From assembly GCF_009834785.1 (NCBI RefSeq), contig NZ_WUYX01000033.1:62001-126000 (forward strand): a stretch of 64,000 nucleotides of DNA, read 5' to 3'. The DNA is from Natronorubrum halalkaliphilum. Its GTDB lineage: Archaea > Halobacteriota > Halobacteria > Halobacteriales > Natrialbaceae. The notes under the pieces are model-generated. The model worked only from the letters and a program-made list of their open reading frames with translations, was not told the origin of the DNA and made no database searches. A program made the translations under genes and the position numbers. Positions 2,092-60,483 of this stretch are shown piece by piece (the first letter of the stretch is position 1; the number at the start of each line of letters is the position of its first letter).

Positions 2092-4017
2092 ATGAACTAT
2101 TACAGTTCGCCTCCATCTGTAGATTCGATGGTATCTCACCCGGAGTACGCAGTTACTGCTGAGTTAGACGTAATGGTTGAAACCCGTGATGGCGTCGAGC
2201 TAGCAACCGATATTTATCGGCCGGCCGATCCGGACACCGGCGAGCCGATCGACGAACCCAAACCTGTGTTGCTCGATCGGACGCCCTACGGCAAGCGCGG
2301 CCGGATGGAACGACACGGGGAATGGTACGCAAAGCGCGGCTACGTCGTCGCCATCCAGGACTGTCGGGGGCGATTCAACAGCGGCGGCGACTACTACATC
2401 TTCATCAACGAGCCCGAAGACGGCTACGACACGGTCGAGTGGCTCGCCGACCAACCCTACTGCGACGGACAGGTCGGCACCTTCGGCACCTCCTACGGCG
2501 CCTGGGTCCAGAACGCGCTCGCGACGCAGGATCCACCCCACCTCGAGGCCATGTTCGTCAACCAGGGCGCGGCGAACGGTCGAAAGGCGACGTTCCGACA
2601 CAACGGCACCTTCGAACTGCGCTGGCTCTGCTGGGCGTTCACGCTCGGCGGCGGCTTCGCACAGCGGGCCCTCGAGGACTCGGACATTCAGCAGCGACTG
2701 GCAAACGTCGACGTTCGGGACGTGCTTGCAAACGGCCCCGCACAGCCGGGCCAATCCCCGCTTCGACACATTCCAGACTACGAGGAGTGGGCGTTCGACA
2801 TCATGACTCAGGGAGCCGCGAGCGACGAGCTCTGGCAGGAGCCCGGCATGAACTTCGAGGCCTACTACGACGAGTCCGCCGACGTCCCGACGGTGTACTC
2901 GGGCGCCTGGTACGACTCCTACACGAAGGCGACCTGCGACAACTTTGAGGCGCTGGCCGAGCGCAAAGACAGCGACCACTTTCTGTTGATGGGGCCGTGG
3001 ACCCACGGCTGGAACAGCTACCCGCTGCCCTCCTGGAACAAGTCCTACTCCGGGGAACTCGAGTTCGGCGAGCAGGCCCTGCGCGACTATCAGGAGACCC
3101 GACTGCGCTTTTTCGATCACTACCTCAAGGGGAAAGACACCTGGGACGACCAGCCGACGGTCCAGTACTTCCAGATGGGGACCGGCGACGGCGAACAGAC
3201 GCGCGAGGGGCGGCTCTTCCACGGCGGCGAGTGGCGCTCGGGCGAGGAGTGGCCCCTGCCGGACACCGAGTTCACGACCTACTACATCCACGAGGACGGC
3301 CGACTCACGACCGACGAGCCGACCGCCGAGGACGCCGCGACGAGCTACGAGTTCGACCCCCGCGACCCCGTCCCGACCATCGGCGGCAACTGCTCGTCGT
3401 ACATCACCTACGAGCCTCGGGAGGAGAACATCCTAGAGTATCCGCTGAGCGAGCGCAAACTGCAGGACCTCACCGGCCGCGGCGGCTTCGACCAGCGAAC
3501 CCGGGAGGACACATTCGGGGCCGAACCGCCGTACGGCCCGCTCGAGGAGCGAAACGACGTGCTCGTCTACCGGACGCCGCCGCTCGAGGAGGATGTCGAA
3601 ATCGCCGGACCGATCCGGGTCCGCGTCTACGGCTCGACCGACGCCCCCGACACCGACTTCACGGCGAAGCTGATCGACGAGCACCCGCCGAGCGAGGAGT
3701 TCCCGAACGGGGCCGCGATCAACCTCTGTGACTCCATCTGTCGCGGCCGCTACCGCGGCTACCGCGACGAGCCGGACCTGCTCGAGGACGGCGAGGTCTA
3801 CGAGTTCGAGATGGAGCCGTACCCGACGGCGAACGTGTTCAAGGAGGGCCACCGCATCCGGCTGGATATCTCCTCGTCGAACTACCCGCGCTACGACGTG
3901 AACAACAACACCGGCGGACCGCTCTACGGTGACCGCGAGTACCGGACCGCGACGAACACCGTCCACCATAACGCGGAGTACGCGACGCAGATCGAACTGC
4001 CGATTCAGTCGCGCTGA
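2092..4017 (+). CDS. CocE/NonD-family S15 hydrolase
   Basis: A 641-residue alpha/beta hydrolase of the X-Pro dipeptidyl-peptidase S15 / cocaine esterase family, which cleaves esters or amides. The nucleophile is Ser134 in GTFGTSYGAW, and the catalytic His is probably His305 in GPWTHGW. The C-terminal third (about residues 430-640) looks like the family's jelly-roll domain. I see no signal peptide, so it is probably cytoplasmic. The first ATG (2092) and a second in-frame ATG (2128) are both possible starts, and neither has a strong Shine-Dalgarno. It is divergent from the NCS2 permease gene and sits in the catabolic island. A role on a cyclic amide or acyl-amino substrate is possible but not shown. 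Confidence 0.85.
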   Translation: MNYYSSPPSVDSMVSHPEYAVTAELDVMVETRDGVELATDIYRPADPDTGEPIDEPKPVLLDRTPYGKRGRMERHGEWYAKRGYVVAIQDCRGRFNSGGDYYIFINEPEDGYDTVEWLADQPYCDGQVGTFGTSYGAWVQNALATQDPPHLEAMFVNQGAANGRKATFRHNGTFELRWLCWAFTLGGGFAQRALEDSDIQQRLANVDVRDVLANGPAQPGQSPLRHIPDYEEWAFDIMTQGAASDELWQEPGMNFEAYYDESADVPTVYSGAWYDSYTKATCDNFEALAERKDSDHFLLMGPWTHGWNSYPLPSWNKSYSGELEFGEQALRDYQETRLRFFDHYLKGKDTWDDQPTVQYFQMGTGDGEQTREGRLFHGGEWRSGEEWPLPDTEFTTYYIHEDGRLTTDEPTAEDAATSYEFDPRDPVPTIGGNCSSYITYEPREENILEYPLSERKLQDLTGRGGFDQRTREDTFGAEPPYGPLEERNDVLVYRTPPLEEDVEIAGPIRVRVYGSTDAPDTDFTAKLIDEHPPSEEFPNGAAINLCDSICRGRYRGYRDEPDLLEDGEVYEFEMEPYPTANVFKEGHRIRLDISSSNYPRYDVNNNTGGPLYGDREYRTATNTVHHNAEYATQIELPIQSR

Positions 4018-6171: not shown

Positions 6172-6546
6172 TCAGATCGACTGCACGAGTTCGACGACGT
6201 AGCCGTCCGGATCCTCGAGAAACGCCACGCGGGCGTCGGCCGCCTCGACCGTCATCGGTTCGGCGACGATGGCCGGATCGGCGGCGTCGACGATGCGTTC
6301 GAACTCGGCGTCGGTATCGTCGACCGAAAAGGCAACGTGGTCGATTCCCTCCGGCGAGACGGCGCCGTCGTCGTCCGGGTCGTGTTTGAACTGTAGTTCG
6401 GCGCCGTCCTCCGTCCCGACGTAGTAGTTGACGACGCCGTCGTCGCCGGTGAACTGAGACTGGTACTCGAGTCCCAGCACGCCCTCGTAGAACTCGGTCG
6501 TTTGCTCGAGATCGGACACCCACAGTGCGGTGTGTATGACGTTCAT
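6172..6546 (-). CDS. VOC (glyoxalase/dioxygenase fold) family protein
   Basis: A 124-residue single-module vicinal-oxygen-chelate protein. It opens with a beta strand (MNVIHTALWVSDLEQ) and has the paired beta-alpha-beta units typical of glyoxalase I, with DGAELQFKH and GIDHVAFSVDD. It ends with FLEDPDGYVVELVQ. The candidate metal ligands are His at residue 5, Glu in AELQ, His in IDHVAF and Glu in VVELVQ. It probably acts as a dimer. I start at the ATG at 6546 rather than the upstream frame start because a TATA-like sequence lies 25-34 nt upstream. The substrate is unknown. It is transcribed towards the transducer gene. Confidence 0.85.
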   Translation of the reverse strand: MNVIHTALWVSDLEQTTEFYEGVLGLEYQSQFTGDDGVVNYYVGTEDGAELQFKHDPDDDGAVSPEGIDHVAFSVDDTDAEFERIVDAADPAIVAEPMTVEAADARVAFLEDPDGYVVELVQSI

Positions 6547-6660: not shown

Positions 6661-7896
6661 ATGGCAATTTCTATCGAACGCGAACGATTCGTCGAGACGA
6701 TGCGCGAACAGGCCGAAATCGGTGCGACCGAAGGCGGCGGGCTCCACCGACTCGCGCTCTCGGACGAGGACAAGGCGATCCGCGACTGGTTCGCGGAGCA
6801 GTTAGCGGCTCTGGACCTCTCGATCCGGATCGACGAGTTCGGGAACATGTTCGGACGCCGCGACGGGACCGATCCGGACGCCGATCCGGTGCTCGTCGGC
6901 TCCCACCTCGACTCCCAGCCGTACGGCGGGATCTACGACGGGGCGCTCGGCGTCGTCGCCCCGCTCGAGTTGCTCCGAACGCTCGAGGATGAGGGGATCG
7001 AGACGCGACGTCCGATCGAGATCGTCAACTGGACGAACGAGGAGGGATCCCGGTTCCAGCCGGCGATGCAGGGCAGCGGCGTCTGGACGAACGAACTGGA
7101 CCTCGAGACACAGTACGAGCGGACCGACGAGGACGGGAACAGCGTCCGCGAGGAACTCGAACGGATCGGGTACCTGGGCGATGTCCCGGCGGAACCCCGC
7201 GACTACGAGGCCTACTTCGAACTCCACATCGAGCAGGGGCCGTACCTCGAACTCGAGGGCGTGGACGTCGGCGTCGTGACCGGCGTCGTCGGCTTCTACT
7301 GGGGGGCGACGACGTTTACCGGCGAAGCGGACCACTCCGGGCCGACGCCGATGCACGACCGGTCGGACGCGCTGGTCGCGGCGGCCGACGTGATCACCGG
7401 CATCCGCCGGATTCCGGGCTCGCTCGGTGATCGAACCGTCGGGACGGTCGGCTATCTCGACGTCGACCCGAACTCGATCAACATCATTCCCGGCGAGGTA
7501 ACCTTCACCTGGGGATTCAGAGATCCGTCCGACGAGATCGTCGACGAGGCGAAAGCGCGGGCGCTGGCCGAGATCGAGGCCGCCGCCGAACGGGAGGGCG
7601 TCGAGTGGGAGGTAGAAAAGCGAATGCGATCGGCGAGCGTCGATTTCGCCGATCGGTGTATCGACGCGGTCCAGACGAGCGCGGACGACCTCGGCTACGA
7701 CAGCATGCAACTCTACAGCGGCGCGGGCCACGACGCCGCCCACCTGAGCAAGGTTACGGATACGAGCATGGTGTTCGCTGTCAGCGAGAACGGCAAGAGC
7801 CACTCCGAGGAGGAGTTCACCAGCTGGGACGACTGTTACGCGGCGGCGAATACGCTCGCGAACGCGGTAGTTCGGGTCGCGGGCCTCGAGGAGTGA
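6661..7896 (+). CDS. M20 Zn-dependent N-carbamoyl amino acid / allantoate amidohydrolase
   Basis: A 411-residue M20-family metal-dependent hydrolase of the HyuC / beta-ureidopropionase / allantoate amidohydrolase group. Metal ligands are visible as His82 and Asp93 (GSHLDSQPYGGIYD), Glu127-Glu128 (TNEEGSRF), His in HIEQGP (about 192) and His in the C-terminal KSHSEEE. These enzymes cleave a carbamoyl or ureido group, releasing ammonia and CO2. Product options include beta-alanine from N-carbamoyl-beta-alanine, or ureidoglycolate from allantoate. It converges on a hydantoinase that would supply its substrate, and the pair is the classic ring-opening and decarbamoylation couple. Sequence cannot settle which carbamoyl substrate is used. 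Confidence 0.9.
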   Translation: MAISIERERFVETMREQAEIGATEGGGLHRLALSDEDKAIRDWFAEQLAALDLSIRIDEFGNMFGRRDGTDPDADPVLVGSHLDSQPYGGIYDGALGVVAPLELLRTLEDEGIETRRPIEIVNWTNEEGSRFQPAMQGSGVWTNELDLETQYERTDEDGNSVREELERIGYLGDVPAEPRDYEAYFELHIEQGPYLELEGVDVGVVTGVVGFYWGATTFTGEADHSGPTPMHDRSDALVAAADVITGIRRIPGSLGDRTVGTVGYLDVDPNSINIIPGEVTFTWGFRDPSDEIVDEAKARALAEIEAAAEREGVEWEVEKRMRSASVDFADRCIDAVQTSADDLGYDSMQLYSGAGHDAAHLSKVTDTSMVFAVSENGKSHSEEEFTSWDDCYAAANTLANAVVRVAGLEE

Positions 7897-7958: not shown

Positions 7959-9341
7959 TCAGAACGCCCAATCGGTGGACTCGCGCTCGACGAACCGTCC
8001 GTGCCCGTTCTCCGCGACGATCTTGCCGTCGTCGGCGACGAGTTCGCCGCGAACGAAGGTTTGTTTGACGCGGCCGGTTACCTCGCGGCCCTCGTAGATC
8101 GAGAAGTCCGCGACCGAGGCGTTCTCCTCGGCGGTGATCGCGTACGTCTCGTTCGGATCGAAGACCACGATATCCGCGTCCGTTCCCGGGTCGAGGGTTC
8201 CCTTCCCCGGCAGGCCGAAGATCCGCGCGGGATTACGCGAGAGGACCCGGACCAGGAACGGGTACGAGAATCCGCGTTCGATAACCGCCTCGTCGTGAAA
8301 CACCGGTAGGTTCGTCTGGAGCGCGTTCGCGCCGAACTTGCTGTCCCACCAGTCGTCCACCTGCTTGCTCTCTTTCGTGTACCCGCAGTGGTCCGTCGAA
8401 ACCACGTCCAGGGTTCCGGCCTCGAGGTGTTCGAACATCGCCTCGATGTCGTCGGGTTTCCGGATCGGCGGCGCGATCATCGGTAGGTTGCCGAGTTCCT
8501 CGAAGATCGAGTCGTCGAGCGTCGTGTAGTGGGTACAGGTTTCGGCGCGCAGCATCTCCTCGCCGTAGCGCTCGCGGTAGCGGGCCAGTACGTCCGCGGA
8601 CTTCCGACAGGACGTGTGAATGCCGTAGTACCGACAGCCGGCTTCCATCGCCATCCGCGCGGCGGCGTCGGCCGCGATCGCCTCGGCGTAGTCGGGTCGC
8701 GAGCGCGGATACCACTCCGGATCCCCCTTCCCTTCCCGCTGGAACTGCGCCGTGCGATCGTCACAGATGGTGGCGTCTTCGGAGTGCAACACGGCGAACG
8801 CGTCCAGATCCGCGAGCGCCTCGAACACGCGGTTCATGAACCCGTTCTCGAGCCCGAACTCGTAGGCGGTGAACAGTTTGATCGACGGCACCCCGGCGTC
8901 GACGACGGCCTCGAGTTCCTCGAGGACGGCCCGGTCCTCGCGGGTGATCGCGCCGTGGAGGCCGTAATCGACGACGGCCTCCTCGGCCTTCGCCCGCTTT
9001 CGCTCGATCCCCTCGCGGAGCGTTCCGGGTTCGTCCCAGGGGCTCATCTCGCCGACCCAGGCCTGCCAGGCGAAGTCGATGTACGTCGTCGTGCCGCCGA
9101 GCGCGGCCGCTTTCGTGGCCGTTTCGTACGTATCGAACGAGAACATATCATCGATGTGAACGTGGGGGTCGATGACGCCCGGCATCACCATCGATCCCGT
9201 CGCGTCGATCGTGTGATCCGCCTCGGGCATCGATTCTCCATCGCCGACGGCGGCGATTCGTTCGCCGTCGATCGCGACATCCGCATCGAACGTGTCAGTT
9301 GGCGTGACTACCGTTCCACCACGTATGATAGTGTCAACCAT
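7959..9341 (-). CDS. Dihydropyrimidinase / hydantoinase-type amidohydrolase (first copy)
   Basis: A 460-residue amidohydrolase-superfamily enzyme that hydrolyses cyclic amides such as dihydrouracil, hydantoin or allantoin to N-carbamoyl acids. The binuclear metal site is recognisable: His60 and His62 (DPHVHIDD), the probable carboxylated Lys in SIKLFTAYEF (about residue 153), His in LHSEDA, His in GIHTSCRK, and Asp in STDHCGYTK. It is divergent from the aminotransferase-AOR operon across a 151-bp promoter region and convergent with the M20 amidohydrolase. This places it just upstream of that enzyme in a pathway. Dihydropyrimidinase, D-hydantoinase and allantoinase cannot be told apart from these motifs. 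Confidence 0.9.
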   Translation of the reverse strand: MVDTIIRGGTVVTPTDTFDADVAIDGERIAAVGDGESMPEADHTIDATGSMVMPGVIDPHVHIDDMFSFDTYETATKAAALGGTTTYIDFAWQAWVGEMSPWDEPGTLREGIERKRAKAEEAVVDYGLHGAITREDRAVLEELEAVVDAGVPSIKLFTAYEFGLENGFMNRVFEALADLDAFAVLHSEDATICDDRTAQFQREGKGDPEWYPRSRPDYAEAIAADAAARMAMEAGCRYYGIHTSCRKSADVLARYRERYGEEMLRAETCTHYTTLDDSIFEELGNLPMIAPPIRKPDDIEAMFEHLEAGTLDVVSTDHCGYTKESKQVDDWWDSKFGANALQTNLPVFHDEAVIERGFSYPFLVRVLSRNPARIFGLPGKGTLDPGTDADIVVFDPNETYAITAEENASVADFSIYEGREVTGRVKQTFVRGELVADDGKIVAENGHGRFVERESTDWAF

Positions 9342-9492: not shown

Positions 9493-10836
9493 ATGGGAGA
9501 CGACACCGAATCGGAGACGGATCTGAACGAGATCGAACGGTTGGACAAAGCGCACGTGTTCGGGACGTGGTCCTTTCAGAACGAGGTTCGGCCGCGGCAG
9601 GTCGTCGGTGCCGAGGGAAACCGGTTCGAGACGGCGGACGGGGAGGAGTACCTCGACTTTTCGGGCCAGTTGATGTGTTCGAACCTGGGCCACTCCGCGG
9701 ATCGGGTCGCCGACGCGATGGCGGAACAGGCCCGCGAAGGGGCGTACTTCGCGCCGGGGTACACGACGGAGAATCGTGCCCGCCTGGGGGAGAAACTCGC
9801 CGAGGTGACGCCCGGATCGCTCTCCAAGACCTTCTTCTCGACCAGCGGCACCGAGGCCGTCGAGGCCGCGATCAAGATCGCCCGAATGTACACGGGCAAC
9901 CACAAGATCGTCTCCCGCTATCGGTCCTACCACGGCGCGACCTACGGTTCGATCAGCGTCACCGGCGATCCGCGGCGGCTCATGGCCGAACCCGGTATTC
10001 CGGGCGCGATCAAGGCCCCGGATCCGTACGCCTACGGCTCGACGATGGACCCGATGGAGAGCCTCGAGTACATCGACGAGATGCTCATGCTCGAGGGCGA
10101 CACCGTCGCCGCCGTGCTCGTCGAACCGGTCGTCGGCTCGAACGGGATCCTCGTGCCCCCGCCGGAGTATCTCCCGCGGCTCAAAGAGATCGCCCACGAT
10201 CACGGCGCGTTGCTCATCTGTGACGAGGTGATGAGCGGCTTCGGCCGGACCGGCGAGTGGTTCGCGTCCGATCTGTTCGACGTGACCCCCGATATCATGA
10301 CGATGGCCAAGGGGCTCTCGGGTGCGTACGCGCCCCTCGGCGGGACGATCGTCACCGACGAAGTCGCCGCCCACTTCGAGGACGAGATGTTCTGTCACGG
10401 CCACACCTACGCGGGACACCCGGTCGCGTGTGCGGCCGGGCTGGCGGCGATCGAGACCTACGAATCGGAAGGGCTGATCGACCGCGCCGACGAGGTCGGC
10501 CGCTACCTCGGAGACCGCCTCGAGGAGCTACAGGAGACCCATCCGAGCGTGGGCGAGACCCGCGGCGTCGGGCTGTTCCGCGGCATCGAACTGACGAAAC
10601 GGGCGGACGAACGCGTCCCGTTCGGCGAACGGAAAGACAAGATCTCGACCGGGACGACGGTCGTCGACGAGGTCGCCGCCCGCGCGGGCGACCGCGGCGT
10701 CTACGTCGCGAACATGATCAACACGCTGATCATCGCGCCGCCGCTGTCGATCACTCGCGAGGAAATCGACGAAGCGGTCGACGCGCTCGACCACGCGCTC
10801 GACCACGCCGACGAATCGATGGAGGGGACCCCGTGA
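9493..10836 (+). CDS. Class III PLP aminotransferase, probable omega-amino acid transaminase
   Basis: A 447-residue fold-type I, class III aminotransferase. The PLP-binding Lys is Lys273 in MTMAKGLSGAYAP, and the ring-nitrogen Asp is Asp244 in LICDEVMSGFGRTG. The GHTYAGHPVACAA block is typical of beta-alanine/taurine/GABA:2-oxoacid transaminases. The product of such an enzyme is a semialdehyde. I start at 9493 because of the TATA-like element 26-35 nt upstream. Its TGA overlaps the GTG start of the aldehyde oxidoreductase gene by GTGA, so the two are translationally coupled. With beta-alanine supplied by the hydantoinase/M20 pair, the product would be malonate semialdehyde. Taurine or GABA remain possible donors. 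Confidence 0.9.
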   Translation: MGDDTESETDLNEIERLDKAHVFGTWSFQNEVRPRQVVGAEGNRFETADGEEYLDFSGQLMCSNLGHSADRVADAMAEQAREGAYFAPGYTTENRARLGEKLAEVTPGSLSKTFFSTSGTEAVEAAIKIARMYTGNHKIVSRYRSYHGATYGSISVTGDPRRLMAEPGIPGAIKAPDPYAYGSTMDPMESLEYIDEMLMLEGDTVAAVLVEPVVGSNGILVPPPEYLPRLKEIAHDHGALLICDEVMSGFGRTGEWFASDLFDVTPDIMTMAKGLSGAYAPLGGTIVTDEVAAHFEDEMFCHGHTYAGHPVACAAGLAAIETYESEGLIDRADEVGRYLGDRLEELQETHPSVGETRGVGLFRGIELTKRADERVPFGERKDKISTGTTVVDEVAARAGDRGVYVANMINTLIIAPPLSITREEIDEAVDALDHALDHADESMEGTP

Positions 10837-12689
10837 GCGAGTTGCCGTCCGTTTACGGAGGTGAGATTCTCCACGTGGACCTCGAGTCCGGGGAGACGGA
10901 CCGCGAGCGGATCGAGCCCGAAGACGCGAGAGCGCTGCTCGGCGGCAACGGGTTCGCGGCGGCGCAGGTCCACGAACACGTCCCGCCCGATGCGGACCCC
11001 TTCGATCCGGCGAACGTGGTCGTCTTCGCGGTCGGACCGATGAACGCGACGCCGTTTCAGAGCACGAGTCGCGGCGTCGTCGGCTTCGTCAGCCCGATGA
11101 CGAACGGCTTCTTCGACAGCACGTTCGGCGGGACGTTCCCCCGCGCCCAGAAGACGACGGGGTTCGAAGCCATCGTCCTCCACGGGGAGGCCCCGGAACT
11201 CTCCACCGTCTGCGTCGACGAGGAGGGGGCGACGGTCTCGGAGGCCGAGGAGTTGGCAGGACTGGATACCTACGAGACCTGCGAGGCGGTCCGCGAGCGC
11301 GAAGAAAGCGAGGACGAGAGCGACGTCCACGTCGTCGCGGCCGGCCCCGCCGGCGAGAATCGGGTTCGGTACGCGTGTCTGGTCCACCGCGGCCGCGACC
11401 GGGAGGGCGTCGCGGGCCGCGGCGGCAGCGGTGCCGTCCTCGGCGCGAAGAACGTCAAGGCCGTCGCGGTCCGAGAGGGATCGTTCGAGCCCGAGGTCGC
11501 CGAGGAAGAGACCTTCCGCGAACTGACGATGAGCCGAATGCAGCCGTTGATGGAGGAAACCGAGATGCTCCAGGAGTACGGCACCAGCGGCCTCGTCAAT
11601 CCCGTCAACGAGATGGGGAAACTCGGGGTCAGAAACAACCAGTCCGAGCAGGCCGATCCCGAGTTCGCGGAAGCGATCAGCGGCGAGACGTTGAAAGAGG
11701 AGTACGTCACCGAGGATACGACGTGTGCCAACTGTGCGGTCCGCTGTGGGAAACACGTCAGCGTCCAGTCCGAAGGAATGACCCAGGCGAAGATCCCCGA
11801 GTTCGAGAGCCTCTTTGGCACCGCTACGATGCAGGCGGTCGACGACATCAAGCGAGTCATGAAGGCGAACGATCTCTGCGACCGACTCGGCATGGACACG
11901 ATCAGCTGGGGCGTCACCGTCGCGTTCGCCCGCGAGTGCGCCGAGAACGGGCTCATAGACGCCGATGACTCGGCCCATCTCGAGTTCGGCGACGCCGACG
12001 GACTGGTCGAACTCGCGCGTCAGACCGCCGCTCGAGAGGGGATCGGCGACGAACTCGCCGCGGGGTCGTTCAGGCTCGCAGCGTCGCTCCCAGAGAAGGC
12101 CGAACGCTACCTTCACGGCGCGAAGGGCCTCGAGTTCGCCGCCCACTCCCCGCGCGGGCTCAAGGGGATGAGCATCGGCTACGCCACGTCGACTCGCGGC
12201 GGCTCCCACCACGACACCCGTCCGACGCTCCAGTACGGCGGCGAGCACGCCGAGACGACGGACGGAACGGCCGAGTTCGCCGCCAGATCCCAGCACTTCA
12301 CCGCGCTCGGCGACTCGCTCACCCAGTGTCGGTTCGTCAGCGAAGGCGGCTGGGGCAAGCGAATCGGGGACCGGTATCGGGACGCCCTGCAGGCCGCCAC
12401 CGGCTGGGAGTTGACCACGGAAGACGTCGAAACCATCGGCGAGCGGATCTACAACCTCGAGCGGCTGATCAACGTCGAGCGAGGCGTCGCCGACCGCGAG
12501 TCGGACACGCTTCCTCATCGCGTACTGCACGAACCCATTCCGGACGGGCCTGCCGCCGGCATGCACTGTCCGCCCGACGAACTGGCGGCGATGCTCGCCG
12601 AGTACTACGCCTACAGAGGCTGGGACGAAGACGGGAAACCGACGCCGGAGACGCTCGAGTCCCTCGGTCTCGACGAGCGCGCGGGGTGA
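10833..12689 (+). CDS. Aldehyde:ferredoxin oxidoreductase (tungsten/molybdenum AOR family)
   Basis: A 618-residue AOR-family enzyme that oxidises an aldehyde to the acid with ferredoxin as acceptor, using a bis-pyranopterin W or Mo centre and one 4Fe-4S cluster. Cluster ligands are visible as Cys298, Cys301 and Cys305 (CANCAVRC), with Cys499 in DSLTQCRF as the fourth. The length is close to that of the family. The GTG start overlaps the upstream stop codon (GTGA) and is preceded by GGAGGGG. The stop in turn overlaps the GTG start of a MoaD-like gene. Coupling to an omega-transaminase suggests the substrate is the semialdehyde that enzyme makes. This is inference. The family is otherwise promiscuous. 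Confidence 0.9.
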   Translation: MSELPSVYGGEILHVDLESGETDRERIEPEDARALLGGNGFAAAQVHEHVPPDADPFDPANVVVFAVGPMNATPFQSTSRGVVGFVSPMTNGFFDSTFGGTFPRAQKTTGFEAIVLHGEAPELSTVCVDEEGATVSEAEELAGLDTYETCEAVREREESEDESDVHVVAAGPAGENRVRYACLVHRGRDREGVAGRGGSGAVLGAKNVKAVAVREGSFEPEVAEEETFRELTMSRMQPLMEETEMLQEYGTSGLVNPVNEMGKLGVRNNQSEQADPEFAEAISGETLKEEYVTEDTTCANCAVRCGKHVSVQSEGMTQAKIPEFESLFGTATMQAVDDIKRVMKANDLCDRLGMDTISWGVTVAFARECAENGLIDADDSAHLEFGDADGLVELARQTAAREGIGDELAAGSFRLAASLPEKAERYLHGAKGLEFAAHSPRGLKGMSIGYATSTRGGSHHDTRPTLQYGGEHAETTDGTAEFAARSQHFTALGDSLTQCRFVSEGGWGKRIGDRYRDALQAATGWELTTEDVETIGERIYNLERLINVERGVADRESDTLPHRVLHEPIPDGPAAGMHCPPDELAAMLAEYYAYRGWDEDGKPTPETLESLGLDERAG

Positions 12690-12976
12690 CGACCGTGGAG
12701 CTCCGAGTGAAGCTGTTCGGAATGCTTCGCTCCCGGGTCGAACGGCGATCGATCCAGTTAACACTCGCCGACTCGGACCCGACCGTTGCCGACGCGCTCG
12801 CCCGCCTCGAGCGCGAACACCCCGAACTGGCGGGCGAACTCCTCGAGGACGGACGGATCGTCACGACGGTTACCGTCCTTCGAAACGGCCGCCTCGTCGA
12901 CCGCGACGCGCCGGAGACGGTTCCGCTCGAGGCGGGGGACGAGTTGAGTCTCACGCCGCCGATCACCGGCGGCTGA
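12686..12976 (+). CDS. MoaD/ThiS-family ubiquitin-like sulfur carrier
   Basis: A 96-residue beta-grasp protein with the conserved C-terminal PPITGG, whose terminal Gly-Gly is thiocarboxylated. MoaD-type proteins carry sulfur for the dithiolene of molybdopterin. It starts at a GTG overlapping the AOR stop (GTGA); a second in-frame GTG at 12695 is possible. The gene is the last of a three-gene operon and probably serves pterin synthesis for the AOR. A SAMP-type protein-modifier role is an alternative in haloarchaea. Confidence 0.85.
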   Translation: MTTVELRVKLFGMLRSRVERRSIQLTLADSDPTVADALARLEREHPELAGELLEDGRIVTTVTVLRNGRLVDRDAPETVPLEAGDELSLTPPITGG

Positions 12977-14420: not shown

Positions 14421-15794
14421 ATGGGAAGTGACAGCCATTCGCACGATACTGGCTCGGGAGCTGATCTGATCGAGTACGATATCGACGACGAACCACCGCT
14501 GTCCGAAGCGATTCCGCTCGGCATCCAGCACCTGCTGGCGATGTTCCTCTCGACGGTCGCACTGCCGCTCGTCATCGCGGGAGCGATCGGTCTCGAGCCG
14601 GCCGAGACGACGTTCATTGTCCAGATGGCGCTGCTCGTCGCGGGAATTTCGACGATCGTCCAGGTGTACTCCGTCGGGCCGGTCGGCGCACGCCTCCCGA
14701 TCGTGATGGGGACGAGCGCGATCTTCGTCGCGCCGCTGATCGACATCGGGAACGCGTTCGGGCTGGCCGCGATCTTCGGCGCGGTGATCGTCGCCGCCCC
14801 GGTCGAAATCGTCATCGGCTACTTCTACGACGATCTCCGGCGGTTCTTCCCGCCGCTGGTGACGGGCACCGTCGTCATGCTCGTCGGACTGACCCTGATC
14901 CCGACCGCGATCGACTACTCCGCCGGCGGTCCGGGTGCCGAAACCTACGGCAACCTCGAGAACCTGGCGCTCGCGGGGCTCGTCTTCGCCGCCGCGATCG
15001 GTTTCAATCAGTTCTTCGACGGCCTGCTCTCGATCTCGAGCGTGCTGATCGCGGTCGTCCTCGGCTACCTCGCGGCGATCCCGCTCGGACTCCTCGACCT
15101 CTCTGGAGTCGGCGAGTCCAGCTGGGTGGCGGTTCCGATGCCCCTCGAGTTCGGCGTCGCGTTCCACCCGAGCGCGATCCTGATCGCGGCGTTTGCCTAC
15201 GTCGTCACCTCGATCGAGACGATCGGGGACATCGAAGGGACGACGGGGACGGTCGGACGGACGGCGACCTCGCGGGAGATGCGCGGCGGACTGTTCGCGG
15301 ACGGATTCATGAGCATGTTCGCCGGCCTGTTCAACGCCTTTCCGAACACGTCCTTCTCCCAGAACGTCGGCCTCATCGGCTTCACCGGCGTCGCGAGCAA
15401 GTTCGTCGTGGGCATCTGTGGCGTCTTTCTCGTCATCCTCGGGCTGATCCCGAAAGTCGCGGCGGTCGTCGCGGCGATGCCCAATCCGGTACTCGGCGGG
15501 GCCGCGATCGTGCTGTTCGGGATGATCTTCTCGATCGGGATGCGAATCGTCGCGAACCGGGTCGACCTGACCCGTCGGAACCTGACGATCATCGCCGTCT
15601 CGATCGTCCTCGGCGTCGGCGTCGAGGTCAGACCCGACGCGATCGGACAGCTCCCCGATGATGTGCAGGTGCTGGTCGGCTCCGGCCTGCTGGTCGGCGG
15701 CGTCACCGCCCTCGTGTTGAACGCGATCCTGCCCGCCGACGGCGACACGAGACAGGGGCCGACGCAGGTCGAGGAGACGGAACGGGCGGACTGA
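14421..15794 (+). CDS. NCS2 family nucleobase permease (second copy)
   Basis: A 457-residue NCS2 permease, clearly homologous to the one at 323-1888 but diverged. The QH motif is in LGIQHLLAMFLSTVALP (about residues 36-37). The TM8 Glu lies in YVVTSIETIGDIEG, and the TM10 block reads NTSFSQNVGLIGFTG. An AT-rich stretch (TTTTAATTGG at 14401, ACACATATC at 14384) lies directly upstream as promoter. Having two NCS2 copies plus an NCS1 permease in one island suggests different base specificities. Confidence 0.9.
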   Translation: MGSDSHSHDTGSGADLIEYDIDDEPPLSEAIPLGIQHLLAMFLSTVALPLVIAGAIGLEPAETTFIVQMALLVAGISTIVQVYSVGPVGARLPIVMGTSAIFVAPLIDIGNAFGLAAIFGAVIVAAPVEIVIGYFYDDLRRFFPPLVTGTVVMLVGLTLIPTAIDYSAGGPGAETYGNLENLALAGLVFAAAIGFNQFFDGLLSISSVLIAVVLGYLAAIPLGLLDLSGVGESSWVAVPMPLEFGVAFHPSAILIAAFAYVVTSIETIGDIEGTTGTVGRTATSREMRGGLFADGFMSMFAGLFNAFPNTSFSQNVGLIGFTGVASKFVVGICGVFLVILGLIPKVAAVVAAMPNPVLGGAAIVLFGMIFSIGMRIVANRVDLTRRNLTIIAVSIVLGVGVEVRPDAIGQLPDDVQVLVGSGLLVGGVTALVLNAILPADGDTRQGPTQVEETERAD

Positions 15795-17812: not shown

Positions 17813-19213
17813 TCAGCGGGTGCTATCGACTCGATCCGCGTCCTCGGGAATCCGGTGTGCCGACAGAATACCGGTTTTCTCGAGGGCGTAGTAGCCGACG
17901 ATGTGGGCAGCCGTTGCCGCGAGCATGCCGTTGAGCGCCGCCATCCCCGGAATCGGTGCCGACACCGTGACGCCCGGAACGATCGAGCCGGCGGTCAGGA
18001 CGGCGACGAGACAGCCGACCACGTACGCAATCACGCCGGTCCAGCGGACGCTCGTGAACTGAATGTCGTCCATCCGGGGAATACCATCGCGCCAACACAG
18101 CAGGAAGTCGGCGATAATGATCGCGCCGAGCGGCGGGATGTACTGTCCCAGCAACTCGAGCCACGGGAGCAAGAGGGCGTCAGCGCCGGCCAGTGCGAGC
18201 GCGATCCCGATCAGACAGCCCGCGATGACGAACGGGCGCTTGCGATCGAACTCGAAGGCCTCCGCACCGGCCACGCTGAACGCGTACGCCGCGTTGTCGT
18301 TCGTCGTCCAGATGTTCAGGATGAGTGCGATCAGGCCGACGGTCGCGAGTCCCTGTGCGACCAGCACTTCGTAGAGGTCTCCCTGCGGCGTCACCTCGTA
18401 GACGGCGCCGCCGACCGCACCGCTGAGAAAGAGGAAACTGTTGCCGACGAGGAAGGCGATCAGTCCCGCCCAGAACGCAATTCGAGAGTTGATGGCGAAC
18501 CGTGCCCAGTTGGGCGCCTGCGTTCCGGCGCTGATGAACGTCCCGACGACGATCGTCACCGCCAGACCGAACGTCATCTCGCCGCCGCCGGTCTGGGCCA
18601 ACAGACCGTCGATGCCGCCGGCATCACCGATCGCGAGGTAGATCGAGAGAACGCCGACGAGGACGAGAAACGGAACGGCGACGTACGAGAGCTTCTCCAT
18701 CCCCTCGTAGCCGAAGTACGCCGTCATCATGTGCAACAGTCCCCAGATGAGGATCAGTGCACTGACCATCGCCGCACTCTCGAGGCCGAAGTACGTCGCC
18801 GTCGGGATCGCCACCATCGGAATGGTGACGCCGAACCAGCCGACTTGCGTCCCGCCCAGCAGCAGATCCGCCCATTTCGCACCGACCCGACCGAACGAGT
18901 ACCGGGCCAACAGGACGGTCGTAAGCCCCGCCTTCGCGGAGATCGCACAGAGGAGCGCGACGTAGCCGCCGAGGATGATGTGCCCGACGACCATCGCGCT
19001 CAACATCTCCTGAAAGCCCATCGCCGCACTGACCTCCGCACCCGCCCACATCGTCCCCGCAAAGAAGACGAGCCCGAGCAGCACTGCCGAGAGGCTAATC
19101 AGTCCTTTCCGTTCGTCCTTCGGGACGTGATCTAGGGGGTAGTCAGGATCGGGAAGATCCTCGTGGCCGAATACGATACGTCGCCAGTCGAATCCATCGT
19201 CACGTGCTGCCAT
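17813..19213 (-). CDS. NCS1 family cytosine/purine permease (CodB-like)
   Basis: A 466-residue polytopic transporter of the nucleobase:cation symporter-1 family. The LLLGGTQVGWFGVTIPM segment corresponds to the CodB substrate-site region, and about twelve hydrophobic segments follow a short charged N-terminus with PDYPLDHVPKDER. It is divergent from a cytosine-deaminase-type gene 148 bp away, the same pairing as codB-codA in bacteria, which favours cytosine or a similar base as substrate. I start at the ATG at 19213 because of a TATA box 22-27 nt upstream. The frame is open back to 19234. Confidence 0.9.
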   Translation of the reverse strand: MAARDDGFDWRRIVFGHEDLPDPDYPLDHVPKDERKGLISLSAVLLGLVFFAGTMWAGAEVSAAMGFQEMLSAMVVGHIILGGYVALLCAISAKAGLTTVLLARYSFGRVGAKWADLLLGGTQVGWFGVTIPMVAIPTATYFGLESAAMVSALILIWGLLHMMTAYFGYEGMEKLSYVAVPFLVLVGVLSIYLAIGDAGGIDGLLAQTGGGEMTFGLAVTIVVGTFISAGTQAPNWARFAINSRIAFWAGLIAFLVGNSFLFLSGAVGGAVYEVTPQGDLYEVLVAQGLATVGLIALILNIWTTNDNAAYAFSVAGAEAFEFDRKRPFVIAGCLIGIALALAGADALLLPWLELLGQYIPPLGAIIIADFLLCWRDGIPRMDDIQFTSVRWTGVIAYVVGCLVAVLTAGSIVPGVTVSAPIPGMAALNGMLAATAAHIVGYYALEKTGILSAHRIPEDADRVDSTR

Positions 19214-19234
19214 TACACACGGTATATAACTCAC

Positions 19235-19361: not shown

Positions 19362-20657
19362 ATGACCACGTGGCTCGTCACCGATGCAACGACACGCGAC
19401 GGATCGTCGGTCGACATCGCGATCGAAGACGGCGCGATCAGCCGGCTCGAGGACGCCGGCTCGATCGATCCCTCGACCGTCCCGGACGACCGGCGGTACG
19501 ACGCGGACGGCCGGCTCGTAACGCCGACGCTGACCGAACCACACCTTCACCTCGACGCGACCCTGACCGCGGGCGAGCCCCGCTGGAACGAGTCGGGGAC
19601 CCTCGCGGAGGGGATCGGTATCTGGGGCGAGCGAAAGCGGTCACTCGAGGCCGACGACGTCAAAGCCCGAGCCGAGCAGGCGATCGAGTGGCTCGCGGCC
19701 AACGGCGTGACCCGCGTTCGAACGCACGCCGACACGACCGAAACGTCACTGACCGGCGTCCGGGCGCTGATCGAACTTCGCGAGGACGTCGCCGATCTGG
19801 TCGATCTCCAGGTCGTCGCGTTTCCCCAGGACGGCGTCTTTACGGACGAGTCACACGAGGATTTGCTTCGGGAGGCACTCGAGATGGGCGCGGACGTCGT
19901 CGGTGCGATTCCGCACAACGAACACACCCGCGAGGACGGCGTCGCCTCGGTCGAACTCGCGATGGACCTCGCGGAGCGGTACGACCGGCCGGTCGACGCC
20001 CACATCGACGAGACGGACGATCCCGGCTCTCGCTTTACGGAAGTGCTCGCCAGCGAGTCGATCAAACGCGGGATCGGCGACCGCGTGACGGCAAGTCACA
20101 CGACGGCGATGCACTCGTATCCGAACAGCTACGCGGCGAAGGTGATCTCCCTGCTCGCCGAGAGCGATGTCGACGTGGTTACCAACCCGCCGGACAACGC
20201 GGTGTTGCAGGGTCGCTACGACGACTATCCGCGGCGACGCGGTCACACCCGGATCGACGAACTTCGAGACGCCGGCGTCACCGTCGGACTCGGGCACGAC
20301 TCCGTGATGGATCCGTGGTACCACTACGGACGGGGCGATCCGCTCGACGCCGCGTTCGTCCTACTCCACTACGCCCACATGAGCGGCCGCGGCGACGTCG
20401 AACCGATCTGGGAGATGCTCACCGAAGCGAACGCGGAGGTCTTCGGCGTCGACGACTACGGCCTCGCGGCGGGCGCCGAAGGGTCGCTCGTCGTCTACGA
20501 CGCCCCCGATCCGTTTAACGCGCTTCGAACGCAAGCGCCGCGAACGCTGGTGCTCAAGGACGGTCGCGAAATCGCCCGAACGGAACCCGCGAGCACGCGC
20601 GTCATCCGCGAAAACGGCGACGAAGAATCCGATCGGTCGGTCGACTTCCACCGGTAA
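19362..20657 (+). CDS. Cytosine-deaminase-type amidohydrolase (CodA-like, first copy)
   Basis: A 431-residue amidohydrolase that aligns with E. coli CodA almost residue for residue. Metal ligands are His61 and His63 (PHLHLD), His214 with Glu217 (AHIDETDD) and Asp313 (GHDSVMDPW). Gln156 (AFPQDG) matches the pyrimidine-binding Gln. The position of CodA Asp314, which tunes substrate choice, is Ser here. The expected reaction is hydrolytic deamination, such as cytosine to uracil. Isocytosine, isoguanine or creatinine are alternatives known for the family. It is divergent from the NCS1 permease gene and convergent with a paralogue. Confidence 0.9.
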   Translation: MTTWLVTDATTRDGSSVDIAIEDGAISRLEDAGSIDPSTVPDDRRYDADGRLVTPTLTEPHLHLDATLTAGEPRWNESGTLAEGIGIWGERKRSLEADDVKARAEQAIEWLAANGVTRVRTHADTTETSLTGVRALIELREDVADLVDLQVVAFPQDGVFTDESHEDLLREALEMGADVVGAIPHNEHTREDGVASVELAMDLAERYDRPVDAHIDETDDPGSRFTEVLASESIKRGIGDRVTASHTTAMHSYPNSYAAKVISLLAESDVDVVTNPPDNAVLQGRYDDYPRRRGHTRIDELRDAGVTVGLGHDSVMDPWYHYGRGDPLDAAFVLLHYAHMSGRGDVEPIWEMLTEANAEVFGVDDYGLAAGAEGSLVVYDAPDPFNALRTQAPRTLVLKDGREIARTEPASTRVIRENGDEESDRSVDFHR

Positions 20658-22826: not shown

Positions 22827-23172
22827 ACCTACGTCATTACCGTCTCGTCACTTAAACCTACGTGAACGGGCGAAACCCCGAAATCCAGGACGTCACGGGA
22901 GCGATCAGTGTCATCGGTGGGATAAGTCGGCGCCGAAAAGACGAGGCGCCACCACACTCCAACCGCGCGATCAGGTATGCAGTCACCACCAATGGTTACT
23001 CCAGCGATCGTTCACCGTGGGAACACGGAACAACACTTATTAGTACTGTTGAGTAAAGGATACGATGTCTGTGTGAACGACACATGATTATCTGTAACAC
23101 CCCCCAGCACCGAACTCGGTTCGGCCATCGGCTGGCGACGAGTACCTTCAGGTCACACCGCGCCGAGTGGCC
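22827..23172. other. 346-bp divergent intergenic region
   Basis: This region separates the cyclase gene (minus) from the FAD-subunit gene (plus). It holds the cyclase TATA box (22851-22856), an AT-rich patch near 23035-23060 (ACACTTATTAGTA) and a short hairpin with arms CCGAAC and GTTCGG at 23110-23124. The small ORFs inside have no recognisable similarity or start signals, and I see no gene. Confidence 0.5.
22851..22856 (-). promoter_or_regulatory. TATA box for the cyclase gene
   Basis: Minus-strand TTTAAG lies 25-30 nt upstream of the ATG at 22826. Confidence 0.5.
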
Positions 23173-24081
23173 ATGAAGCCGGCACCGTTCACGCACCACC
23201 GGCCGGATTCAGTCGAGGAGGTCCTTACCCTGCTCGACGACCTCGAGGAGGCCGAACTCCTCGCGGGGAACCAGTCGCTGGGCATCGTGATGGCGAACCG
23301 ACTCGCAACGCCCGAGCACCTCATCGATCTCAACGGCGTCGACGAACTCGCGTTTATCGACGAAGACGACGACGCAGTCCGGGTCGGGGCGATGACCCGA
23401 CACCGGACGATCGAGCGGTCGGACCGCCTCGAGGAGGCCGTGCCGATGCTTCCCGAGGCCGCAGAACAGATCGCCGGTCCGTCGGTTCGAAACCAGGGGA
23501 CGATCGGCGGCAGTATCGGCGAGGCCGATCCCGCCGGGAACTACCCCGCGGCGCTGGTCGCGCTCGAGGGCGTGCTTCACCTGCGTTCGGCCGACGGAAC
23601 GCGCGAGGTTCCCGCCGACGAGTACTTCATCGCCTACATGTTCACGGATCTACGCGAGGAAGAGATCATCGAGTCCGTCTCGATCCCGACCGAGCCGTTC
23701 CCGACCGACCGAACGGGAATGGCGTTTCTGGAACTCAAGCGAGCCGCCCAGACCTGGCCGACCGTCAGCGCCGCGACTGCGATCCGGGTCGACGATCCGA
23801 ACGCGGACGACCCAGTCGTCGAAGACGCACGCATTGCGCTGGCTAACGCCGCCGACATTCCGCTTCGCGTCGAAGACGCGGAGGCCGTCCTCGAAGGGGA
23901 GCCGCTCTCCGAGGAGGCGCTCGCGGAGGCGAGCGAGCTCGTGACGGCGGCGGTCACGCCTGAAGGAGAGATGCACGCCGACCGAGAGTACAAGGAGGAA
24001 GTGGCCGGCGAGTACGCGAAACGCTCGCTCGAAACGTCGTACGAACGCGCAGTAACAGCAGAACAAGCGAACGGAGCCTAA
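23173..24081 (+). CDS. Molybdenum hydroxylase FAD-binding (medium) subunit, CoxM/XdhB type
   Basis: A 302-residue FAD subunit of the xanthine dehydrogenase/CO dehydrogenase family. The two FAD motifs are visible: LLAGNQSLGIVMANR near residue 35 and TIGGSIGEADPAGNYPAAL near residue 115. It passes electrons from the 2Fe-2S subunit to the acceptor. I take the ATG at 23173 as start, with a GTG at 23167 as an alternative. It is followed 6 bp later by a coxG-like gene in the same direction. The catalytic and 2Fe-2S subunits are on the opposite strand downstream. Confidence 0.9.
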   Translation: MKPAPFTHHRPDSVEEVLTLLDDLEEAELLAGNQSLGIVMANRLATPEHLIDLNGVDELAFIDEDDDAVRVGAMTRHRTIERSDRLEEAVPMLPEAAEQIAGPSVRNQGTIGGSIGEADPAGNYPAALVALEGVLHLRSADGTREVPADEYFIAYMFTDLREEEIIESVSIPTEPFPTDRTGMAFLELKRAAQTWPTVSAATAIRVDDPNADDPVVEDARIALANAADIPLRVEDAEAVLEGEPLSEEALAEASELVTAAVTPEGEMHADREYKEEVAGEYAKRSLETSYERAVTAEQANGA

Positions 24082-24087
24082 ATCACT

Positions 24088-24615
24088 ATGTTAGAATTTA
24101 GCGGCGAAAACGAGATGGAACAGTCGAGAGAAGAACTCTGGCCGTACTTCACCGACCCCGACGTGCTCGCGGAGTGTGCGCCGGGTTGCAAGGAGATGGT
24201 CCTCGAATCACCCCACGAGATCACGGCCGTGTTAGCAGTCGGCGTCGGCAGCGTCAAGCCGGAGTTCAACGTCGACGCCATCGTCACGGAGCTCGAATAC
24301 CCCGAGAAACTGGTGCTCAAAGCCGAAGGAAACGCACCACGAAACGAGTTCGAGATGACTGCGACGATGGAGATGATCGAGCAGGAAGACGGCGGGACGA
24401 CCGTCGCCTGGGAGGCGAAAGCCGACGTGTCCGGAACGATCGTCAGCCTCGGCGGCCGAGCGTTAAAGAGCGTCACGAACCGCCTGGTCAAGAAGTACTT
24501 CGCCGACATGCAAGCCGCCGTCGAAGCGGGCGAAGGAGCAGAATCGAAACTCGAGGCCGCACCGCCCGAAGCGCTCGAGGACTTCGATATCGATCTGGAA
24601 GAAGAAGCAGCGTAA
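24088..24615 (+). CDS. CoxG-like SRPBCC protein
   Basis: A 175-residue member of the SRPBCC/START-like fold, the family of carbon monoxide dehydrogenase accessory subunit G. It opens MLEFSGENEMEQSREE and contains LAECAPGCKEM, a hallmark of CoxG proteins. CoxG proteins help attach or assemble molybdenum hydroxylases at the membrane. Here it lies directly after the FAD-subunit gene, in one operon with it. The last 25 residues are acidic and low in complexity. Its partner should be the hydroxylase encoded around it. Confidence 0.85.
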   Translation: MLEFSGENEMEQSREELWPYFTDPDVLAECAPGCKEMVLESPHEITAVLAVGVGSVKPEFNVDAIVTELEYPEKLVLKAEGNAPRNEFEMTATMEMIEQEDGGTTVAWEAKADVSGTIVSLGGRALKSVTNRLVKKYFADMQAAVEAGEGAESKLEAAPPEALEDFDIDLEEEAA

Positions 24616-24635
24616 GCGGACGACCCTCTTTTTGC

Positions 24636-24659
24636 GGATCCGTTCCCGTTCCCGTTCGG
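24636..24659. repeat. Short hexamer tandem repeat at convergent junction
   Basis: GGATCC, GTTCCC, GTTCCC and GTTCGG follow each other in the gap between the coxG-like gene and the convergent catalytic-subunit gene. Confidence 0.5.
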
Positions 24660-24746
24660 CGTGGCCGATTGATCGCGACGATCTGATAGAGGGAGCTACG
24701 TTTCGAACGTCGAACGCCGCGAAACCGTCAGAAGAGAGGACGTCGG

Positions 24747-27236: not shown

Positions 27237-27238
27237 GG

Positions 27239-27781
27239 TTACTCCTCCGTTCCCGTTCCCGTTTCCGTTTCCGCTGTCGCGTCCATCTCGTCTGCGGCGC
27301 GTTCGACGGCCTCGTAGATGTTCTGGTAGCCGGTACACCGACAGATGTTATCCGCCAGCCCCTCTTCGATCTCTTCTCGAGAGGGGTCGGGATTCTCCTC
27401 GATCAGTTCCTTGGCGGCCATGACGAACCCGCTCGTACAGAACCCACACTGGAGCGCGTGGGTCTCGTGGAACGCTTCCTGAATCGGGTGGAGGGACCCG
27501 TCTTCGGCCAGCCCTTCGACGGTCGAGATTTCCTTGCCGTCCGCCTGGACCGCATACGAGAGACAGCTCTTTACCGTTCGTCCCTCCTGCTGGACGGTAC
27601 AGGCCCCGCAAACACCGTGCTCGCAGCCGACTCGAACCCCGCGGAGACCGCACTCGTTGCGAAGGAAGTCAGAGAGTTTGAGCCGCGGTTCGACCTCTGC
27701 GGTGATAGGTTCGCCGTTGACGGTCACGGTGATTTCTTCGGTGACGGGACCGTCGTACTCGCCTGTGCTATCTGTACTCAT
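27239..27781 (-). CDS. Molybdenum hydroxylase 2Fe-2S (small) subunit, CoxS type
   Basis: A 180-residue iron-sulfur subunit. The plant-type cluster is bound by Cys53, Cys58, Cys61 and Cys73 (CEHGVCGAC and KSCLSY). The all-helical domain cluster is bound by Cys112, Cys115, Cys147 and Cys149 (CGFC and CRC). It relays electrons from the Mo centre to FAD. The C-terminal ten residues (Thr/Glu/Gly) are encoded by a hexamer repeat. It is the first gene of the coxS-coxL pair, with only 2 bp between them. Confidence 0.93.
   Translation of the reverse strand: MSTDSTGEYDGPVTEEITVTVNGEPITAEVEPRLKLSDFLRNECGLRGVRVGCEHGVCGACTVQQEGRTVKSCLSYAVQADGKEISTVEGLAEDGSLHPIQEAFHETHALQCGFCTSGFVMAAKELIEENPDPSREEIEEGLADNICRCTGYQNIYEAVERAADEMDATAETETGTGTEE
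27249..27278. repeat. Hexamer repeat encoding the CoxS C-terminal tail
   Basis: GTTCCC, GTTCCC, GTTTCC, GTTTCC and GCTGTC run in register on the plus strand and encode the Glu-Thr-Gly-rich tail of the 2Fe-2S subunit on the minus strand. Confidence 0.65.
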
Positions 27782-27809
27782 GGATACATCGTACGTATCC
27801 TGACCGAAA

Positions 27810-27815
27810 CATAAA
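27810..27815 (-). promoter_or_regulatory. TATA box for the coxS-coxL operon
   Basis: Minus-strand TTTATG lies 29-34 nt upstream of the ATG at 27781. Confidence 0.45.
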
Positions 27816-27888
27816 CGTTGCGCTGTGACCGGTGATATCGCACCACAAACGGGTTACACTCAAGTAGGTCGGGTGAGAGAGCATACGT

Positions 27889-29319: not shown

Positions 29320-29321
29320 CG

Positions 29322-30062
29322 ATGGGCGAACTCGTCGGCATCGTGCTCGCGGCGGGTCTCGGGACCCGGTTCGAGGACGGGAACAAACTGCTCGCGACGA
29401 TCGGCGGTGACGCAGACGCCGCGGACGCTGCGAGCAGCGAGACCGACGAACGCGACCCCCTTCGGCGGAGCGACGACCCGATCGTCCGCCGCGCCGCTCG
29501 CACGTTCGCCGTCGACGCCGTCGATCACACGATCGCGATCCTCGGTCACGAGGCCGACGCCGTCCGCGAGGCCGTCGCGGCTCACGTCGACGAGACGAGA
29601 CGCAATCCGTCGTACGATCGCGGCCAGAGCACGTCCGTCCGAGCGGGTGCTCGTGCCGCCCGCGACCGCGGTGCCGACGCCGCGCTCTTTTTGCCGGGCG
29701 ATATGCCCTGCGTCGATCCGACGACCGTAGAGAAAATCGTCGCAACGTATCGGGACGGCGGCGGCGACGTCATCGTGCCGACTCGAGACGGGCGACGCGG
29801 AAATCCGGTCCTGTTCGATGCCGCTCTGTTCGACGACCTGCTGGACGTCTCGGGCGATACCGGCGGCCGAGCGCTGTTCGATACGGCCGACGTTCGTCGC
29901 GTCGCCGTACGGGATGGCGGGATTCACATCGACGTCGACACGGTGGCGGACCGGGACCGACTCCGGCGCGGTCAGTCGGACCGTGCCCCGGACTCGGGTT
30001 CCGATTCAGATTTCGCTTCGGATTCCGGCTCGGACTCCGACTCCGACGGCGATCGATCGTGA
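29322..30062 (+). CDS. MocA-type molybdenum cofactor nucleotidyltransferase
   Basis: A 246-residue NTP transferase of the MobA/MocA fold, probably transferring CMP to molybdopterin for the xanthine-dehydrogenase-type enzyme. The N-terminal motif is VLAAGLGTRFEDGNK, followed by an unusual acidic insert of about 25 residues. LFLPGDMPCVD and RRGNPVLFD are the metal- and base-site blocks. The last 28 residues are a Ser-Asp repeat encoded by hexamers that overlap the end of xdhC on the other strand by 91 bp. It is the second gene after the hydantoinase. A guanylyltransferase (MobA) role is less likely in this context. Confidence 0.87.
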   Translation: MGELVGIVLAAGLGTRFEDGNKLLATIGGDADAADAASSETDERDPLRRSDDPIVRRAARTFAVDAVDHTIAILGHEADAVREAVAAHVDETRRNPSYDRGQSTSVRAGARAARDRGADAALFLPGDMPCVDPTTVEKIVATYRDGGGDVIVPTRDGRRGNPVLFDAALFDDLLDVSGDTGGRALFDTADVRRVAVRDGGIHIDVDTVADRDRLRRGQSDRAPDSGSDSDFASDSGSDSDSDGDRS

Positions 30063-59149: not shown

Positions 59150-59267
59150 GGGCGGGTGTACCGCGGGGATGCTGAAAACCGTTTGCGATACGATCGAATC
59201 GTCTCGACTCCCCTCCGGGTCGTCGTATTCAGCAACACCTAACAGTCCGGTATCTGTGGGTTGATCT

Positions 59268-60395: not shown

Positions 60396-60483
60396 GCACC
60401 CCGGTCGGCGGCCGTTCGTTACCGGTCGAAAACGGAGCGACTCGACGCGCTTCTGGCTAAATAACCAGTCTTCGCTACAACTG

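Follow-up and report, generated by a model that had tools for sequence, protein, structure and literature searches.

An aminotransferase and aldehyde:ferredoxin oxidoreductase operon of Natronorubrum halalkaliphilum as a candidate alternative last step of beta-alanine breakdown in haloarchaea

A 64,000-nucleotide stretch of the Natronorubrum halalkaliphilum genome (contig NZ_WUYX01000033.1, positions 62,001 to 126,000; the window) contains an operon that joins genes for a class III aminotransferase (ATR), an aldehyde:ferredoxin oxidoreductase (AOR) and a MoaD-like protein. On balance, we favor the reading that this operon offers another way to finish the breakdown of beta-alanine (or 3-aminoisobutyrate), with the AOR acting where a CoA-acylating (methyl)malonate-semialdehyde dehydrogenase (MMSDH) otherwise would. 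The core inference, that the AOR replaces a semialdehyde dehydrogenase, is drawn from comparative genomics, by which it appears well supported. The genome (4.56 Mb in 72 contigs) is 99.8% complete, and the features of the operon are as follows:

9493..10836, plus strand: ATR, class III aminotransferase, predicted beta-alanine / 3-aminoisobutyrate type (family models, orthologue pairing with MMSDH)
10833..10836, plus strand: GTGA stop-start overlap of ATR and AOR
10833..12689, plus strand: AOR, pterin- and [4Fe-4S]-dependent aldehyde:ferredoxin oxidoreductase of a discrete haloarchaeal group (family models, motif alignment)
12686..12689, plus strand: GTGA stop-start overlap of AOR and MoaD
12686..12976, plus strand: MoaD/SAMP1-like sulfur carrier or modifier with a Gly-Gly end (SAMP1 model)

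The initial annotation had these three genes coupled by two GTGA overlaps, and both overlaps are present where it placed them, with all three family assignments confirmed by models. The GTG start codon of AOR at 10833 overlaps the stop of ATR, which ends at 10836, and the MoaD-like open reading frame, starting at GTG 12686 or at an alternative GTG at 12695, overlaps the AOR stop in the same manner. The ATR frame itself begins at ATG 9493 or at an in-frame ATG at 9370. A tight ATR-AOR junction, with a gap of 3-4 nucleotides, is seen again in three other genomes (G212, G057 and G375), and given this recurrence the coupling of ATR and AOR exceeds chance.

The ATR has the class III fold (Aminotran_3, 325 bits) and has orthologues of at least 75% identity in 50 of 391 haloarchaeal genomes, with ten more at 62-66%. 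Its immediate neighbor was a single divergent MMSDH gene in 31 of 40 sampled loci, and in most ATR-MMSDH loci an Lrp-type regulator comes after MMSDH. We counted MMSDH by the curated TIGR01722 cut-off of 448.5 bits, against which a representative ATR-adjacent MMSDH scored 524 bits. Clusters of MMSDH, ATR, hydantoinase and M20 genes are present in the annotated records of Halarchaeum sp. CBA1220 and Haladaptatus caseinilyticus, and M20 and hydantoinase genes accompany ATR in AOR-type and MMSDH-type loci alike. The linkage of its orthologues to MMSDH points to beta-alanine or 3-aminoisobutyrate as the probable substrate of the ATR.

The distributions of AOR and MMSDH among the 60 genomes with ATR are complementary. 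MMSDH was found in all 40 genomes without the AOR group and in 6 of the 20 with it (Fisher ~2e-9, ignoring kinship), the MMSDH proteins of G045, G174, G277 and G389, which are just above the curated cut-off, being counted as present; none of the 60 was without both enzymes. An intact malonate semialdehyde dehydrogenase elsewhere in the genome would, according to the initial annotation, have spoken against its proposal; the search of the N. halalkaliphilum genome returned no TIGR01722 protein above 448.5 bits, the best aldehyde dehydrogenase reaching 314 bits. Several loci have the appearance of intermediate states. In G194, MMSDH, AOR and ATR stand side by side, and its same-genus relative G215 has AOR-ATR there, its genome containing no protein above the MMSDH cut-off. 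G270, a Natronorubrum-genus relative, retains an MMSDH fossil (L108:11048-11174) in the usual divergent position beside ATR, with AOR elsewhere; this fossil is internally deleted, consisting of 35 residues at 77-83% identity and a 10-residue C-terminus. Across the 60 genomes, these gene patterns suggest that the AOR repeatedly took the place of MMSDH. The replacement of a dehydrogenase put forward in the initial annotation agrees with the complementary distribution but differs in one detail, in that the displaced enzyme would be CoA-acylating.

The AOR is full-length, with matches to AFOR_N (204 bits, cut-off 29.8) and AFOR_C (384 bits, cut-off 27). Its motifs align with those of Pyrococcus furiosus AOR (1aor), namely CANCAVRC at 298, DRLGMD at 350 and DSLTQC at 494, as do the Fe-S cysteines (CxxCxxxC and a distal Cys), two pterin motifs and the active-site Glu/His region. 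The protein is a member of the aldehyde:ferredoxin oxidoreductase family, with use of ferredoxin and of tungsten or molybdenum predicted, and its best solved relatives are 1aor (343 bits) and Haloferax volcanii WOR83 (9q1t, 260 bits). Orthologues that are ~70-87% identical occur in 33 of the 391 genomes, while every other AOR is at or below ~38% (the other three AORs of the same genome are only 32-33% identical), and based on this drop we consider the AOR to represent a discrete haloarchaeal group. AOR and ATR co-occur above expectation, in 20 of the 33 AOR genomes (Fisher 3e-10, ignoring kinship), and lie within ~10 kb of each other in 9 of the 20 genomes with both. On the AOR tree, the ATR-linked AORs are scattered over no fewer than three separate regions.

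The genomic contexts of the AOR group vary and include hydantoinase/M20 islands, MoaD joined by a TGATG overlap, an Fe-alcohol dehydrogenase, a ThiF-type E1 and other catabolic genes. In genus g57 (L046-L053, L064) the same AOR group is found near a ThiF/UbaA-type E1 gene, and several g57 genomes have, on the opposite flank of AOR, genes resembling those for RIO kinase and ribosomal L15e. In two metagenome-assembled genomes, one from Bacillota and one from Desulfobacterales (L161, L173), the gene of a more distant AOR (33-38%) immediately precedes that of an ATR relative (44%), possibly an independent pairing in anaerobes; other remote ATR relatives (e.g., L160, L162, L184 and L189) are accompanied by MMSDH. 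Halomarina BND7 was left out of the count of ATR-AOR pairs, as the aminotransferase encoded nearby shares only 41% identity with ATR.

The surroundings of the operon in the window include the following features:

6175..6546, minus strand: VOC/glyoxalase-family protein, conserved in AOR islands (62% to the H. larsenii gene; Glyoxalase, 67 bits)
6661..7896, plus strand: M20 carbamoylase, N-carbamoyl-amino-acid / beta-ureidopropionase type (TIGR01879, 408 bits, cut-off 204)
7959..9341, minus strand: hydantoinase / dihydropyrimidinase-type cyclic amidohydrolase, divergent from ATR (TIGR02033, 343 bits, cut-off 393)
14421..15794, plus strand: NCS2 nucleobase permease, xanthine-permease type, conserved in the island
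17813..19234, minus strand: cytosine permease, CodB type (NF008241, 405 bits, cut-off 326)
19362..20657, plus strand: cytosine deaminase-type amidohydrolase (NF005748, 460 bits, cut-off 438)

The hydantoinase and M20 genes, initially described as immediately upstream, are both nearby; however, the hydantoinase gene is on the minus strand, divergent from ATR, and is thus outside the operon, as is the plus-strand M20 gene, which lies beyond it. Two further sets of genes were noted in the window. A CocE/NonD (S15-type) hydrolase (2092-4017) is shared, at 69-89% identity, by almost all AOR-type islands, and a molybdenum-hydroxylase set (23167-31186), made up of medium, large and small subunits, CoxG, a MocA-like protein and XdhC, is accompanied by a second hydantoinase, a cyclase and two cytosine-deaminase-type genes. 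A reading of the VOC gene as a methylmalonyl-CoA epimerase found no support (36 bits, cut-off 115), no equivalog model being matched over its cut-off.

Under the scheme we propose, the hydantoinase and the M20 hydrolase would probably supply the beta-amino acid via an N-carbamoyl compound, and ATR would transfer its amino group to an acceptor, giving malonate (or methylmalonate) semialdehyde. The AOR, coupled to ATR in translation, would oxidize this semialdehyde to the free dicarboxylic acid, with two electrons passing to ferredoxin, and so would stand in for the CoA-acylating MMSDH that is the companion of ATR in most haloarchaea. The scheme draws on gene structure, protein families, synteny, the complementary distribution and the MMSDH fossil, and it is from these that its substrates, electron acceptor, metal and CoA-transferase step are predicted. 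The latter step enters because MMSDH gives a CoA thioester (acetyl-CoA directly) and an AOR gives the free acid, so that malonate would need activation. Just beyond the edge of the window (contig C54, about 59126-61621) are genes for a family III CoA-transferase and MoeA. The CoA-transferase most resembles the succinate--glutarate and succinyl-CoA:mesaconate enzymes, scoring under the cut-off of each, and copies conserved at 83-89% flank the AOR islands of G160, G212, G057 and G375; no gene at that level was found beside ATR-MMSDH loci, three of which have relatives at 42-43%. Based on its conservation beside AOR islands, this dicarboxylate-type enzyme may possibly activate the malonate or methylmalonate formed.

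The M20 protein and the hydantoinase would fit the beta-ureidopropionase and dihydropyrimidinase families, the hydantoinase being below the TIGR02033 cut-off. The M20 protein scores 312 bits with N-carbamoyl-beta-alanine amidohydrolase (8c46) versus 174 bits with allantoate amidohydrolase, and for the hydantoinase, D-hydantoinase/dihydropyrimidinase structures rank above allantoinase. Together with the cytosine permease and cytosine deaminases of the island, this linkage fits the end of pyrimidine breakdown suggested by the initial annotation. However, the PreA model, for the PreA/PydA-type dihydropyrimidine dehydrogenase, matched none of 145 haloarchaea, with a positive E. coli control, and the N. 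halalkaliphilum genome gave only PyrD-like and HisA-like matches, its sole full-length dihydroorotate-dehydrogenase-type protein looking like PyrD. A pyrimidine origin is less certain for this reason: either another enzyme would carry out the first reductive step, or the substrate would enter as a dihydropyrimidine or hydantoin. Hydantoinase-carbamoylase-aminotransferase clusters are common in haloarchaea, although PreA was found in none of those sampled. Several of these clusters have a Mer-like oxidoreductase of the LLM class and F420 type, scoring below cut-off, between hydantoinase/M20 and ATR/MMSDH (L234:10923-11960, L111:12237-13271, L119 and L122), and we regard it as a candidate uracil reductase that would fill this gap.

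The MoaD-like protein matches SAMP1 (NF041918, 69.5 bits, cut-off 60) and has the C-terminal residues ITGG. It is one of four MoaD/ThiS proteins in the genome, two of which are near other AORs, and MoaD comes after AOR in this genome and at several other AOR loci. A 2010 paper already described archaeal AOR-MoaD linkage (PMC2948915), and in Thermococcus a MoaD-type protein is required for the tungsten cofactor (PMC11323500). The suggestion in the initial annotation that the local MoaD supports the pterin of the AOR is plausible, but MoaD is not specific to this system, since it is a known neighbor of archaeal AORs and none of the three other tandem ATR-AOR loci (G212, G057 and G375) has it. 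For the latter reason we rejected the view that MoaD belongs inseparably to the ATR-AOR pair; it would be an optional, local sulfur carrier for pterin synthesis.

A number of observations weigh against the AOR having replaced MMSDH in beta-alanine breakdown. Six genomes contain MMSDH and AOR together, and Halostagnicola larsenii XH-48 has both enzymes. When kinship was corrected for on the ATR tree there were 3-4 independent contrasts, all in the predicted direction and 0 in the opposite one (p = 0.125). The AOR group is found without any ATR in 13 of the 33 genomes, and also beside Fe-alcohol dehydrogenases and other genes, so its substrate range may be broader; the islands of G160 and G376 retain AOR without an adjacent ATR. 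In addition, the nearest solved structure to the ATR is a taurine:2-oxoglutarate aminotransferase (298 bits), and the N. halalkaliphilum genome has other NAD-type aldehyde dehydrogenases.

Some of these observations are as expected if the AOR were a general short-chain aldehyde oxidase. Malonate semialdehyde is unstable, and its loss of CO2 would give acetaldehyde, which the AOR would convert to acetate for use by acetyl-CoA synthetase. The occurrence of the AOR group without ATR and beside Fe-alcohol dehydrogenases suits such an enzyme, as does its closeness to the broad-range Pyrococcus AOR. We nonetheless think this route rather unlikely, although it survives best among the alternatives, based on the fact that no semialdehyde decarboxylase gene was recognized in the island and that the island's conserved CoA-transferase suits malonate better than acetate. 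The similarity of the ATR to the taurine enzyme, along with the broad ranges of class III aminotransferases, raises the further alternative that the ATR uses another omega-amino compound (taurine, gamma-aminobutyrate or a diamine) and the AOR its semialdehyde, with hydantoinase and M20 merely sharing a catabolic island. This we consider improbable because ATR orthologues of 75-83% identity adjoin MMSDH, and not a sulfoacetaldehyde or succinate-semialdehyde enzyme, and because M20 and hydantoinase are found with ATR in loci of both types.

A purine island, with the hydantoinase acting on allantoin, M20 on allantoate and the AOR on glyoxylate (after glyoxylate transamination) or another aldehyde, would account for the xanthine-type permeases and the xanthine-dehydrogenase-like molybdenum hydroxylase in the window; the M20 protein is also over the cut-off of an "allantoate amidohydrolase" subfamily, and a related-looking purine cluster exists in H. 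volcanii (PMC8305020). However, uricase was not found in the genome in a search whose H. volcanii control was positive, which lowers this reading to a marginal one, and it is opposed as well by the structural affinities of the hydantoinase and M20 protein and by the pairing of ATR orthologues with MMSDH. Least probable of all is that one of the genome's several NAD-dependent aldehyde dehydrogenases takes the semialdehyde, the AOR being linked for another reason: a non-MMSDH aldehyde dehydrogenase does occur in the ATR clusters of G147, G162 and G270, but those of the N. halalkaliphilum genome all fall short of the MMSDH cut-off, and coincidence would have to explain both the complementary distribution and the replacement in situ seen in G194/G215 and the G270 fossil.

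The enzyme families are known, as is the AOR-MoaD linkage, while the combination was not found described in the open-access literature searched; likewise we found no description there of an AOR with beta-alanine or malonate (malonic) semialdehyde, subscription papers not being excluded. If the replacement of MMSDH by the AOR is correct, an AOR would act on a semialdehyde derived from a beta-amino acid and couple this step to ferredoxin, which haloarchaea already use as the electron carrier in 2-oxoacid oxidation (PMC8305020). A physiological substrate would be assigned to a named group of haloarchaeal AORs, a non-orthologous replacement would have been caught in intermediate states (both genes, a gene fossil, one gene), and growth on beta-alanine that depends on tungsten or molybdenum would be predicted in specific strains. 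The comparison also exposes a gap, in that haloarchaeal hydantoinase-carbamoylase-aminotransferase clusters lie beside cytosine uptake genes, yet no dihydropyrimidine dehydrogenase is known. More tentatively, the ferredoxin-linked AOR and the dicarboxylate CoA-transferase could form a two-enzyme replacement for MMSDH, adopted more than once in haloarchaea, that ends a pyrimidine-ring pathway begun by a non-PreA reductase.

The N. halalkaliphilum system resembles the bacterial Pyd cluster (PydA-B-C-D with PydE or MSDH; PMC7332683) in linking a hydantoinase/dihydropyrimidinase, a carbamoylase and a beta-alanine-type aminotransferase to a semialdehyde-processing gene, with nucleobase permeases near the Natronorubrum operon too; it differs in having an AOR where the bacterial clusters have a terminal PydE (a reductase) or MSDH, and no recognizable PydA/PreA. 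The ATR-MMSDH-hydantoinase-M20 clusters of Halarchaeum sp. CBA1220 and Haladaptatus caseinilyticus plasmids have an orthologous ATR and the same hydantoinase and M20 families, but encode the CoA-acylating MMSDH where the Natronorubrum operon has AOR. Similarly, the operon AOR is like P. furiosus AOR and H. volcanii WOR83 over its full length in Fe-S cysteines, pterin motifs and active-site Glu/His, but at only 343 and 260 bits it belongs to a separate haloarchaeal group. Finally, as in the known archaeal AOR-MoaD pairs (PMC2948915; TK1065/TK1066, PMC11323500), a MoaD-like ubiquitin-fold gene stands beside AOR, and the Natronorubrum pair differs from these in being additionally overlap-fused to an aminotransferase.

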